Source of the DNA: Pseudorasbora parva
Lineage: Eukaryota > Chordata > Actinopteri > Cypriniformes > Gobionidae
Reading direction: 5' to 3'
Assembly: GCF_024679245.1 (NCBI RefSeq)
Contig: NC_090177.1
Location: 39,806,803 to 39,870,802 of the forward strand
DNA: 64,000 bases
The notes beneath the pieces were generated by a model that was not told the origin of the DNA, did not search any database, and saw nothing but the letters and a program-made list of their open reading frames with translations. Of this stretch, positions 27,097 to 60,066 are shown one piece after another (positions within the stretch are counted from its first letter, which is position 1; each line of letters starts with the position of its first letter). The position numbers and the translations under genes were made by a program.

Positions 27097-27345
27097 AGGG
27101 GTTCAAGCACGAAGTGCTGAACACCTATTGTATTTGTACTGATTTTTTTAGGGGTTCAAGCACGAAGTGCTGAAACCCTATTGTAATTGTACTGATTTTT
27201 ATTAGGGGTTCAAGCACGAAGTGCTGAAACCCTATTGTAATTGTATTGATTTTTATTATTATTATTATTATTATTATTATTAGGGGTTCAAGCATGAAAT
27301 GCTGAAACCCTATTGTAATTGTACTGATTTTTATTATTATTATTA
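27097..27345 (+). repeat. Head cluster 1: four heads
   Basis: Heads start at 27097, 27150, 27204 and 27282. The first ends AACACCTATTGTATTTG; the others have AAACCCTATTGTAATTG. The last carries the CATGAAATG hairpin variant. A (TTA)n tract separates the third and fourth, as expected if the fourth inserted into it. Confidence 0.92.
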
Positions 27346-29093
27346 TTCTGCCGTAAAACTCATCGTGCAGACCAAACCGTAAATGCTAGAGACTTCAAAC
27401 TTTGTCAATAGGTAGTCCAAAAATCGAGGAGAGGTTATCAAATTATGAGCCAGATTGGCCAATAGGTGGCGCTACAGCAACCAAAAACGCGAAATGGCTC
27501 ATAACTCCTAAACCGTTGCTTCTAAGGGTCAAGTGTCTTATATCATTGGAAAGCTGAGACCATGACGAACAAAACGTATATCTCCGATTTCATTTCCGGT
27601 ATGCAAATTTTTCCGCCATTTTGAATTTTGTCAAAAACCTACTTTTGCAAACTAGTCCCTGGTTTTTTGACATATCGGAACCAAACCAGTGCCAAAATGT
27701 TCTCTCTAGTCTGAATATCAATAATTATCAAAAAAAGTAGAAATTTTGACTCATGAACGAAAAGGGGCGTGGAAATGTACATTTAAGGCGGAGCCTATTT
27801 TATTAAAGAGGCTATAACTCCAGCAAGAAATGAGATATCTTCACCAAACTTGGTACACATGTTTATGGTCTCAGTCTTTGGTCACGATAAAAAAATTGCG
27901 ACGATTGGCCACTTGGTGGCGCTATAACATGGAAAAAACACAAAAAGGGCTATAACCACGCGACCGCTAGTCCGATTGACTTGAAAATTGGTAAACAGTG
28001 TCTTGGCCCAAGGTACCATGTCTGTCTATGAGAACATTGGCGTATCTCAAAAAACATGGCCGCCATCGGCCAATGAAATTTGAGCACCTATTAGACAGGG
28101 TTAACGGAGGTCGATCAGAACGAAACTCAGTGGGCATGTTTAACTCATGTTCCTAGAGGTCTGTAAGAATTTTGAAAGAATTTGGCCACTAGTTGGCACT
28201 AACGAGTTTTATGGCTCTGCAATCATGTGGTGTTGCACACATCGGCAAAATATGCATATCATATGATAGATCTCCTCATGTTGAACAACTTTGCCTCTAG
28301 AACTATTGCTGTCAATAAAATCGTTAAATAAATATTTTCAATTATGTTAAAAACCTACTTTTGCGAACTAGTCCCTGGTTTTTTGCCCAATCAGAACCAA
28401 ACCAGTCTAGGACAATTCTCTGGACTCTCTATATCAATAATTATCAAAAAAAGTTGATTTTTTTGCATTTGGATGGCTATAACAGGGCCATTTAGAAAAG
28501 AGGCGTGGCAAAATACACTCAAAAGTCTATAAATCCTAAGGGAAAACTCAAAACTTCACGAAAATTGTTGGGTATATGTGGCATAACACGTTGAAGACAC
28601 ATGCAAAGTTTTATGGGGATCGGAGTATAGGGGGCGCTATAAGTGTTAAAAAGCTTTGAAAACCATGTATTCCCTATAGTGAATCTCTGTAATCAGGTGG
28701 GGTTAAAACCGCCACATAATATGCATATGTTATGATAGATCTTCTCATACTGAACAACTTTGCCTCTATAACCAATACTGTCAATCAAATCTTTATTTAA
28801 ATATTCACAATTATGTTAAAAACCTCGTTTTGCAAACTAGTCCTAGGTTTTTTGCCTGATCGGAACCAAACCACATCAGTATGATTCTCTGCACTCTCCT
28901 GATCAATTCATATTTAGACTTTATAAAATCACTATTATAATATTTAAAATCACATTTTGTCAGTTTATCACTTCATTTCACCTGATATCTCTCAAATTCA
29001 TTCAGTGCTTAAAAGCCTTTCATGCAAAAGGTGTCAAATGCTTAAAGACCTTAAATGGCTTGAACCCCGCTAAATGCTGCTCGCAGCTTTAAT
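27346..29093 (+). repeat. Nest unit 1 (body and tail), 1748 bp
   Basis: Starts TTCTGCCGTAAAACTCATCG, tail hairpin GCTGCTCGCAGC (C type). Contains three copies of an ACTAGTCC(C/T)...GGTTTTTTG...GGAACCAAACCA sub-repeat and GGTGGCGCTA-type boxes at 27465, 27915 and 28630, with a GGCACTA variant at about 28195. Confidence 0.88.
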
Positions 29094-29094
29094 T

Positions 29095-29341
29095 AGGGGT
29101 TCAAGCATGAAATGCTGAAACCCTATTGTAATTGTACTGATTTTTATTAGGGGTTCAAGCACGAAGTGCTGAAACCCTATTGTAATTGTACTGATTTTTA
29201 TTATTAGGGGTTCAAGCACGAAGTGCTGAACACCTATTGTATTTGTGCTGATTTTTAGGGGTTCAAGCACGAAGTGCTGAACACCTATTGTATTTGTACT
29301 GATTTTTATTATTATTATTATTATTATTATTATTATTATTA
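29095..29341 (+). repeat. Head cluster 2: four heads
   Basis: Heads start at 29095, 29149, 29206 and 29257. Hairpin variants are CATGAAATG in the first and CACGAAGTG in the rest. A long (TTA)n tract follows the last head. Confidence 0.92.
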
Positions 29342-57064: not shown

Positions 57065-57081
57065 TATTATTATTATTATTA

Positions 57082-58563
57082 TTCAGCCGAAAAACGCATC
57101 GTGCAGACCAAACCGTAAGAGCTGGAAACTTGAAACTTTGTCAATAGGTAGTACAAAAATCGAGGAAAGGTTATCAAATTATGAGCCAGATTGGCCCATA
57201 GGTGGCGCTATAGCAATCAATTGCGCAAAATGGCTCATAACTCCTAAACCGTTTGGTCCACACTCAAGTGTCTTATATCATTGGAAAGCTGAGACCTTGG
57301 CGAACAAAACGCAAATATCAGATTTCATTTCCGTCATTAAAAATTTTCCGCCATTTTGAATTTTGTTGAAAACCTACTTTTACGAACTAGTCCCTGGTTT
57401 TTTGACCGATCGGAACCAAACCAGTGCCAAAATGTTGTCTGTAGTCTGAATATGAACATTCATTGAGAAAAAGTTGAAATTTCGATTCACGGAAGATAAG
57501 GGGATCAAAATGGACGCTCAGGGCGGAGCCTATTTTACTAAAAAGACTATAACTCCAAAAGGAAATGAGATATCTTCACCAAACTTGGTAAAGATGTGTA
57601 TGGGCTAATTCTCTGGTCTCGATAAAAAAATCGCGACGATTGACCACTTGGTGGCGCTATAATGGGAAAAAAACATGAAAATAGCTATAACCACACGACC
57701 GCTAGTCCGATTGACCTGAAAATTGGTATGCAGTGTCTTGGCCCAAGGTACTATGTAGGTCTATGAGGATATTGGTGTATCTCAAAAAACATGGCCGCCA
57801 TCGGCCAATGAATTCGAGCACCTATTAGACGGGGTTAACAGAGGCCAATCCGAATGAAACTCAGTGGACATGTTTGACTCATGGTCCAATAGGTCTGTAA
57901 GAATTTTGAAAGAAATTGGCCACTATTTGGCGCTAACGAGTTTTATGGCTCTGTTATCACGTGGTGTGGCACCCATCCACAAAATATTCATTTCATATGA
58001 TAGATCTCCTCATACTGAACAACTTTGCCTCTAGAACTATTGCTGTCAATCAAATCATTAATTAAATTTTCGTAATTATGTTAAAAACCTACTTTTGCAA
58101 ACTAGTCCCTGGTTTTTTGCCCGATCGGAACCAAACTAGTCAAGGATAATTCTCTGGACTCTCTAGATCAATAATCATTGAAAAAAAATTTAACTTTTAC
58201 ATTTGGATGGCTATAACAGGGCCACTTAGAAAAGAGGCGTGGCAAAATACACTCAAAAGCCTATAAATCCTAAGGGAAAACTCAAAACTTCACGAAAATT
58301 GTTGGGTATATGTGGCATACTATGCTGATAAAGCATGCGAAGTTTTACAAAGATCGGACTATAGGCGGCGCTATAACTGTTAAAAAGCTTTAAAAACCAT
58401 GCATTTCCTATGGTAAATTGCCTATGTTGGCTGTAAATTGACTTTTCCATCTATTATTTTAGTGTTTAAAATCTTGCTAAATAAAACTTAATGTCTTTAA
58501 TGCCTATGTGCTTAAAAGGCCTTAAAGGCTTGAACCCCGCTAAATGCTGCTTGCAGCTTTAAT
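57082..58563 (+). repeat. Nest unit 16, 1482 bp
   Basis: CAGCCG start, T-type tail; close relative of units 2 and 17. Confidence 0.88.
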
Positions 58564-58583
58564 TATTATTATTATTATTATTA

Positions 58584-60066
58584 TTCAGCCGAAAAACGCA
58601 TCGTGCAGACCAAACCGTAAGGGCTGGAAACTTGAAACTTTGTCAATAGGTAGTACAAAAATCGAGGAAAGGTTATCAAATTATGAGCCAGATTGGCCTA
58701 TAGGTGGCGCTATAGCAATCAATTGCGCAAAATGGCTCATAACTCCTAAACCGTTTGGTCCACACTCAAGTGTCTTATATCATTGGAAAGCTGAGACCTT
58801 GGCGAACAAAACGTATATCTCCGATTTCATTTCCGTCATTAAAAATTTTCCGCCATTTTGAATTTTGTTGAAAACCTACTTTTACGAACTAGTCCCTGGT
58901 TTTTTGACCGATCGGAACCAAACCAGTGCCAAAATGTTGTCTGTAGTCTGAGTATCAACATTCATTGAGAAAAAGTTGAAATTTCGATTCACGGAAGATA
59001 AGGGGATCAAAATGGACGCTCAGGGCGGAGCCTATTTTACTAAAAAGACTATAACTCAAAAATGAAATGAGATATCTTCACCAAACTTGGTACATGTGTG
59101 TATGGGCTCAATTTGAGGTCACGATAAAAAAATCGCGACGATTGACCACTTGGTGGCGCTATAATGTGAAAAAAACATGAAAATAGCTATAACCACACGA
59201 CCGCTAGTCCGATTGACCTGAAAATTGGTATGCAGTGTCTTGGCCCAAGGCCCCATGTATGTATATGAGGACATTGGAGTATCTCAAAAAACATGGCCGC
59301 CATCGGCCAATGAAGTTTGAGCACCTATTAGACGGGGTTAATGGAGGTCGATCGGAACGAAACTCAGTGGGCATGTTTGACTCATGGTCCTAGAGGACTG
59401 TAAAAATTTTGAAAGAAATCGGCCACTAGTTGGCGCAAACGAGTTTTATGGTGCTGTAATCACGTGGTGTTGCACACATTGGCAAAATATGCATATCATT
59501 TGATAGATATCCTCATGCTGAACAACTTTGCCTCTAGAACCATTGCTGTCAATCAAATCATTAATTAAATATTTGCAATTATGTTAAAAACCTACTTTTG
59601 CAAACTAGTCCCTGGTTTTTTGCCCGACCGGAACCAAACCATTCTAGGTCAATTCTCTAGACTGTCTAGATAAATATTCATTGAAAAAAAGTTGAACTTT
59701 TGCATTTGGATGGCTATAACAGGGCCAGTTAGAAAAGAGGCGTGGCAAAATACACTCAAAAGCCTATAAATCCTAAGGGAAAACTCAAAACTTCACGAAA
59801 ATTGTTGGGTATATGTGGCATACCATGCTGATGAAGCATGCAAAGTTTTACAAAGATCGGACTATATGTGGCGCTATAACTGTTAAAAAGCTTTAAAAAC
59901 CATGCATTTCCTATGGTAAATTGCCTATTTTGGCTGTAAATGGACTTTTCCATCTATTATTTTAGTGTTTAAAATCTTGCTAAATAAAACTTAATGTCTT
60001 TAATGCCTATGTGCTTAAAAGGCCTTAAAGGCTTGAACCCCGCTAAATGCTGCTTGCAGCTTTAAT
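58584..60066 (+). repeat. Nest unit 17, 1483 bp, outermost right end
   Basis: CAGCCG start, T-type tail ending CTTTAAT followed by a T-rich tract and TTATTATTA. In the nesting model this tail belongs to the first head at 27097. Confidence 0.88.

Follow-up and report, generated by a model that had tools for sequence, protein, structure and literature searches.

How does a single intron come to hold 17 beginnings and 17 ends of one repeat, ordered like nested brackets? The question is raised by a 64,000-nucleotide stretch of Pseudorasbora parva contig NC_090177.1 (positions 39,806,803 to 39,870,802; hereafter the window, numbered from its first letter), in which an intron of a bmp7-like gene carries a block of short heads, longer bodies and tails. 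A preliminary description of the window had ascribed this block to repeated insertion of an element into its own ATT tract, located just behind each head. We consider this reading to be correct with a probability of about 0.9. It is carried by the anatomy of the block, by its junctions, by the lack of local duplication in the window, by the pairing of heads with bodies pooled over several nests, and by one pair of copies of which one is whole and the other is split.

Anatomy of the nest and of its relatives

The block occupies positions 27097-60067; its heads (51-bp core), body starts and tails number 17 each and all lie on the plus strand. BLAST, junction reading and nhmmer profiles each gave these counts, and the order of parts is as first described: HHHH BT, HHHH BT, HH BTx4, HH BTx4, HHH BT, HH BTx6, wherein H is a head and BT a body with its tail. 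None of the three methods found further heads, bodies or tails in the rest of the window. Four weak partial minus-strand tail matches reported by nhmmer at tail-head junctions correspond to an inverted repeat and were set aside. Each element consists of head, T5-(ATT)n, body and tail, and bodies are about 1.2-3.5 kb long. The outer borders are T-rich host DNA (...GTGTTTTATT on the left and TTTTTTATTATTATTAAAAT on the right). With 32,971 bp, the block makes up 88% of a 37.3-kb intron of the gene, which lies on the minus strand and whose intron ends were placed by alignment, a GT donor and a CAG acceptor.

There are 11 head-head, 6 head-body, 11 tail-body and 5 tail-head junctions in the window. 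Their spacers consist of T and ATT, and the sole exception is a CTT before body 9. The array contains 2,983 TT dinucleotides, 213 of them within the T5/ATT spacers, and it is in these spacers that all 16 secondary insertions fall, as read from the junctions.

The proposed mechanism would account for this architecture as follows. The preferred landing sites would be the tract right behind the head and the ATT after the tail, in both cases between two Ts of the T-rich strand. A newcomer would split the tract without duplicating it, and its own head, body and tail would then stand, in this order, between the old head and the old body with its tail. All copies would acquire the same orientation, because one strand of the landing pad is rich in T. 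Newcomers would come from a genome-wide pool and would mostly bring one head and one tail each. Presumably a rolling-circle enzyme performs the insertion, and we infer that target choice is stranded and that the element was complete at every event here. A broader proposal, which we think probable but hold less firmly, is that the family is chiefly its own target by virtue of the T-rich microsatellite directly behind its 5' terminus. Positive feedback would then build nests tens of layers deep, and the order of ends would be a last-in-first-out record legible without dating.

The same grammar recurs at eight read loci on six contigs. The sampled DNA comprises 200 kb in three nests (N1, N2 and N3), three 10-kb pieces, two nests on contig C1 and one more piece of contig C4. 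At seven of these loci, pure T/ATT spacers are found at 110 of 114 head-head, 59 of 63 head-body, 30 of 31 tail-head and 65 of 75 tail-body junctions. The genome (1.23 Gb) holds about 2,170 heads (933 + 1,239, by a 35-bp pattern with up to two mismatches) and about 1,820 tails (810 + 1,010), many of them in nests, and about half or more of the 2,172 heads are directly followed by another head. Pure nesting predicts equal numbers of head-head and tail-body junctions. Pattern searches found 1,106 (473 + 633) and 963 (408 + 555), respectively, a ratio of 1.15, with sensitivities of 99/126 and 61/78 on the eight loci. One 10-kb piece (L030, C13:22342700-22352699) contains four family heads and no body start that the body profile finds; different body families may thus share this head.

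Pairing of heads with bodies

Among 40 contiguous head-body pairs, the head type predicts the body type: a' occurs with A in 14/14 cases and a with B in 5/6, b occurs with A or C, and c and e occur with A. Head types also predict body types across kilobases of inserted DNA, which makes the bracket logic testable and nests usable as ordered lists of transposition. Once 24 tail-less head-body units and three unmatched tails had been set aside, 68 pairs matched by the last-in-first-out rule gave a log-likelihood of -62.05, compared with -90.30 (standard deviation 8.26) in within-locus shuffles (P = 0.0003, a post hoc value, and in this respect a weakness, because the classes, head type and first 8 bp of the body, were fixed after the contiguous-pair table had been viewed). 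With pooled shuffles, the agreement is seen for pairs less than 6 kb apart (n = 35, P = 0.0006) and for those at least 6 kb apart (n = 33, P = 0.026). The 20 simplest nested pairs gave P = 0.0031 pooled and 0.038 within locus. Other matchings score worse: -96.5 for first-in-first-out and -81 to -82 when the register is shifted by one. Of 300 random matchings to open heads, none reaches the nested score. There are 59 pairs among the 68 that belong to kinds known from contiguous pairs (53.0 expected, P = 0.0036), including 8 of the 11 in the window. Tract length is not significantly related to head class in nested pairs (P = 0.12).

A direct view of an insertion is provided by unit 7, which differs from a unit at C11:27107074 (N3_37074) by one base in 1,748. 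In the window this unit is whole, with (ATT)12 between head and body. In N3_37074 the matched head, identical over 45 bp, lies 1.6 kb upstream and is followed by (ATT)3, a full element, (ATT)9 and the body. The tract sums (3 + 9 = 12) match a splitting insertion without target duplication, and this is the only decisive case. So close a relative also shows recent activity. There are eight whole/split pairs that are at least 99.0% alike; three of them share the head haplotype, and the tracts are equal in the unit 7 pair alone. Two whole copies agree in tract length in 0 of 7 comparisons, and therefore ATT tracts change length fast.

Several results weigh against repeated self-insertion. Among 24 whole/split pairs at least 98.5% alike, both tracts are readable in 11 and the sums are equal in 2. 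By locus, the pairing is significant only in N3 (P = 0.0018), with N1 at 0.09, N2 at 0.16, the window at 0.37 (n = 11) and C1 at 0.40; the C16 and C4 loci are uninformative. Three of the 11 window pairings never occur among the 40 contiguous pairs. Mantel comparisons of head with body distances gave P = 0.53 in the window, about 0.93 for the 68 pooled nested pairs and 0.09-0.41 for contiguous pairs. Units 6 and 13 are 99.3% alike, yet their bracket heads differ (b and c). For 45 close body pairs with a nested member, identical matched heads number 16 versus 10.4 by chance (P = 0.066). The best relative of a window unit lies inside the window in 5 of 17 cases (pairs 6/13 and 10/12, plus unit 8) versus about 2.6 expected from pool sizes, and outside in 12. 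A nest at C1:50.744-50.766 Mb, read to both borders, has 9 heads and 12 tails, two of these tails being shortened. A sub-test in the window on the first 60-120 bp with a nested-only shuffle gave P of about 0.015, with negative r for contiguous pairs, and is not relied on.

Balance, rival origins and the record of events

The preliminary description had taken the balance of heads and tails as the sign of self-insertion. The balance itself stands; its use as a diagnostic or a general rule does not. When 17 heads and 17 tails are ordered at random, beginning with a head and ending with a tail, 21.6% of the orders never become negative, and permutation of runs gives 21.2%. This null is too weak for bracket order to serve as proof, and the order by itself is suggestive only. 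Equal counts add some weight, as they arise in 1-14% of simulations of random unit duplication; these keep all heads before all tails, such that their order result is trivial and only the equality figure is usable.

Other nests are less even. Three were read to both borders: the window, the C1 nest with surplus tails mentioned above, and one at C1:32.244-32.251 Mb that has 4 heads, 4 bodies and 3 tails, or 4/4 if an early end is counted. In this last nest (L035, C1:32244300-32251500) the third unit stops at CTTTAATT, an internal sequence resembling the true 3' end; the stop represents a cryptic end or else a deletion that arose at a short repeat. The two short tails of the larger nest (L033, about C1:50753339 and C1:50754838) stop prematurely, with GCTGCT[C/T]G and then TT, as though the element had been terminated inside the 3' palindrome. 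Hand counts from exact pattern lists, which miss mismatched copies, give 8 heads and 12 tails on C1 near 42.2 Mb and 33 heads and 15 tails near 49.85 Mb, where at least two further tails exist. In the C4 nest, host DNA had been predicted beforehand after three more tails; depth reached 0 after exactly three, and a new run of heads followed rather than host DNA. Exact balance is thus to be expected of an undisturbed nest and is not a law.

For these reasons it is possible, although we hold it to be somewhat doubtful, that the nest is real and its 17/17 balance is partly a coincidence of gains and losses, in which case the bracket tree would not be a clean record of 17 events. The C1 nest with 9 heads and 12 tails, the tail-less head-body blocks present in N1, N2, N3 and once in C4, the three unusual window pairings and the 21.6% null all point in this direction. 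Against it, the window contains no tail-less block and no run of equal period, its neighbouring units are not especially alike, and the other eight window pairings are of known kinds. The fusion inside unit 14, which had been explained by a balanced deletion in this nest, offers no sign of disturbance either. Its 27-bp string occurs at 69 places in the genome (27 + 42, with up to two mismatches), and a long relative on C11 (N3_17105) matches unit 14 across the fusion at 92.8%. The fusion is an inherited subfamily trait rather than a deletion in the window. Of the readable insertion history 17 elements deep that was first claimed, the mechanism is therefore retained, while an undisturbed 17-step record is no more than plausible, since 3 of 11 pairings are unusual.

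Dating the inner against the outer copies by body divergence, as had been suggested, would mislead. Terminal branches of the bodies range from 0 to about 6%, and on this basis the heads should carry about 18 changes and the tails 16. However, no difference is seen over 45 bp among the nine type-A tails, and the window heads fall into five haplotypes, each of which is also present outside the window. Ends and bodies disagree on age, and this use of divergence was dropped; divergence from relatives gives upper bounds on age only. Much of the body divergence is probably inherited from different source copies, in which the ends are likely constrained, with homogenisation of the ends as an alternative cause of their uniformity.

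The tail-less blocks form arrays elsewhere. N1 opens with about 32 heads of mixed haplotype (L009, C14:14142352-14144107), followed by 1,009-bp head-body blocks without tails, mostly identical (19/21 neighbouring comparisons). N2 (L016-L018) and N3 (L026-L027) contain tandem 1,180-bp head-body blocks, nearly all identical, and one tail closes each array.

Such arrays raise the possibility that multi-headed composites or rolling-circle concatemers inserted as blocks, an origin already suggested for Helitrons of Fusarium and for centromeric arrays of plants. It is favoured by the head-body arrays of N1, N2 and N3 that close with a single tail and by the exact joining of ends, with no spacer, at 15 of 31 tail-head junctions, and simulations with 10% composite events keep the balance in 60% of cases, so that a few such events are possible. 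As the builder of the window nest it is improbable. Pure composite copying was balanced in 1.6% of simulations, with a mean surplus of 7.7 heads, and window units joined tail to head are only 80-96% alike and are therefore not copies of one circle. Concatemers in the window were rejected on this last ground.

That tandem duplication, unequal crossing over or slippage expanded one or a few nested founders into the block is very improbable. Local duplication does occur: N1 has a block duplication of three units that are 99.2-100% alike and 5.2 kb apart, N2 has adjacent units that are 99.8% alike, and the 1,009-bp and 1,180-bp blocks are in tandem. These cases demonstrate that a test of unit relatedness can detect it. 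In the window, two unit pairs are 99.3-99.4% alike, though neither consists of neighbours. Tail-body neighbours there are 88.4% alike versus 89.0% for random pairs (P = 0.63), and neighbouring heads of the same type number 1 of 11 (2.35 expected). At seven loci, the 177 heads that remain once partial profile matches are dropped belong to 16 haplotypes, and identical neighbours number 23 of 114, compared with 19.9 when all heads are shuffled or 22.8 when they are shuffled within runs. For the 106 complete body-tail units of these loci, the best relative lies in another nest 86 times and in the same nest 20 times (19.3 expected), and is adjacent twice (1.9 expected). There is no excess of like neighbours and nearest relatives occur at chance, which indicates that local duplication did not build the nests; it was rejected as the main builder. 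It would also leave unexplained the agreement of bracket-matched heads and bodies. Similar units of 1-2 kb in an array do pose difficulties for assembly. An assembly artefact that placed similar repeats in the wrong order is nevertheless the least probable account of all, because most unit pairs in the window are 2-20% different and the same grammar is found at all eight loci.

Coordinates of the heads, the body-tail units and the flanking exons in the window
Feature	Position	Strand	Remarks
Head H1 (type a)	27097..27147	+	left border, outermost element; bracket partner unit 17
Head H2 (type b)	27150..27200	+	partner unit 16; b with B absent among 40 contiguous pairs
Head H3 (type b)	27204..27254	+	partner unit 10; variant TATTG once in window, 10 times outside
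Head H4 (type c)	27282..27332	+	contiguous with unit 1
Head H5 (type c)	29095..29145	+	partner unit 9
Head H6 (type b)	29149..29199	+	partner unit 6
Head H7 (type a')	29206..29256	+	partner unit 5; a' with C absent among 40 contiguous pairs
Head H8 (type a)	29257..29307	+	contiguous with unit 2
Head H9 (type b)	30825..30875	+	partner unit 4
Head H10 (type a')	30879..30929	+	contiguous with unit 3
Head H11 (type c)	38568..38618	+	partner unit 8
Head H12 (type a')	38622..38672	+	contiguous with unit 7 via (ATT)12
Head H13 (type a)	45788..45838	+	partner unit 15
Head H14 (type a')	45839..45889	+	partner unit 14; a' with B absent among 40 contiguous pairs
Head H15 (type c)	45896..45946	+	contiguous with unit 11
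Head H16 (type c)	48178..48228	+	partner unit 13
Head H17 (type b)	48232..48282	+	contiguous with unit 12
Unit 1 (type A)	27347..29094	+	
Unit 2 (type B)	29343..30824	+	
Unit 3 (type A, first ~300 bp B-like)	30965..32735	+	
Unit 4 (type A)	32768..34516	+	
Unit 5 (type C)	34534..36347	+	
Unit 6 (type A, long)	36359..38567	+	
Unit 7 (type A)	38708..40455	+	near-identical interrupted copy on C11 (N3_37074)
Unit 8 (type A, long)	40467..42747	+	
Unit 9	42768..44618	+	whole body C-like; first 8 bp A-type
Unit 10 (type C, short)	44633..45784	+	99.4% to unit 12
Unit 11 (type A, long)	45961..48177	+	
Unit 12 (type C, short)	48297..49448	+	
Unit 13 (type A, long)	49460..51718	+	99.3% to unit 6
Unit 14, fused subfamily	51751..55293	+	inner minisatellite 53234-54237; fusion point near 54445
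Unit 15 (type A)	55317..57065	+	
Unit 16 (type B)	57083..58564	+	
Unit 17 (type B)	58585..60067	+	outermost element, right border
bmp7-like exon, one intron side	60806..60886	-	tblastn 88.9% over 27 aa; alone no Pfam match
bmp7-like exon, other intron side	23400..23516	-	TGF_beta PF00019; first codon CAG probably splice acceptor
Third bmp7-like exon	22943..23089	-	TGF_beta PF00019

In the two closest body pairs (units 10/12 and 6/13) the few differences occur in clusters, a possible sign of local gene conversion. Within the bodies lies a direct repeat whose two copies (in unit 17, at about +271 to +400 and +987 to +1116) are about 79% alike; recombination between them would explain the type C subfamilies. 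Outside the nest, there is a minisatellite cluster at 3943-5959 with units of 24, 27, 30 and 21 bp.

Element identity and comparison with known systems

The best reading of the ends is that the element is a non-autonomous, non-coding rolling-circle transposon of the Helitron2/Helentron-like (HINE) kind. The 5' end of the head, AGGGGTTCAAGC, recurs inverted as GCTTGAACCCC 26-27 bp before the 3' end of the tails, forming an 11-bp inverted repeat. This corresponds to the asymmetric terminal inverted repeat (ATIR) plan described in the available text on the Helitron2 group (Bao and Jurka 2013, PMC3627910) and on HINE/DINE-1 (PMC4067079). The 5' ATIR, GGGGTTCAAGC, begins 1 bp inside the end (AGGGG...) in 17/17 heads; because heads are always preceded by T, the exact terminal 5' base is ambiguous. 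A 5' hairpin is predicted for three head types at -9.5 to -10 kcal/mol (z scores -4.0 to -4.7), 0 of 200 shuffles fold as well, and type c heads retain the stem through a two-sided change. The target is T-rich, flanked by T and free of target-site duplication at the outer borders and in the (ATT)12 versus 3 + 9 copy, this last feature resting on that one close case since less close pairs do not decide. The T5-(ATT)n behind the heads, whole or split by insertion, is the microsatellite typical of DINE-1. A point against this identification is the 3' palindrome GCTGCTTGCAGC, which is present and folds no better than shuffles (z scores 0.2-0.3). An autonomous partner would encode a Rep/helicase, joined in Helentrons by an endonuclease; no such enzyme or partner came to light.

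Two other identities were rejected. A canonical Helitron1 would have 5' TC and 3' CTRR ends and lie between A and T, whereas the ends here are AGGGG... and ...TTTAATT in T-rich sites. A cut-and-paste miniature inverted-repeat transposable element would carry terminal inverted repeats at its extremes and a target-site duplication, whereas the 3' repeat is 26-27 bp internal and the one close split tract shows no duplication. There was no match in Rfam, and neither the element patterns nor one unit matched viral, prokaryote or plasmid collections.

Self-insertion of Helitrons has already been proposed in the available text on Fusarium (PMC5148889). Here the bracket logic can be tested statistically, which turns nests into ordered lists of transposition events for a vertebrate family of rolling-circle-like elements. 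The pairing further suggests that a transposing unit usually has a single 5' end and a single 3' end. The bmp7-like intron is a concrete case of intron growth by a self-targeting element. Titles and abstract openings in a partial literature search included none reporting an array or vertebrate self-nesting of this kind, which is no proof of novelty.

As far as the accessible text describes them, Helentrons and HINE/DINE-1 elements (Thomas et al. 2014, PMC4067079) are similarly non-coding, insert into T-rich targets without target-site change, and carry an internal microsatellite and palindromic subterminal repeats. Unlike in that account, the microsatellite behind the head is here a main landing site, and copies pile up inside one another. 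Unlike Helitron2 as presented in the available part of PMC3627910, these copies show no RepHel gene and their 3' palindrome is weak; self-nesting does not feature in that part of the paper. The FoHeli elements of Fusarium oxysporum are also found as nested copies and with several short 5' ends ahead of one 3' end, which is ascribed to self-insertion; the available text (PMC5148889) gives one nested example and a number of elements with multiple 5' ends and a single 3' end. Here, by comparison, there are 1,106 head-head junctions by pattern, and both ends are near-equal in number genome-wide. Finally, plant centromeric Helitron arrays (Xiong et al. 2016, as summarised in the accessible part of the review PMC12628747) consist of blocks in tandem in which numerous 5' ends go with a single 3' end, and the 1,009-bp and 1,180-bp blocks of N1-N3 resemble them. 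The window nest differs from them in having no such blocks and equal numbers of the two ends.

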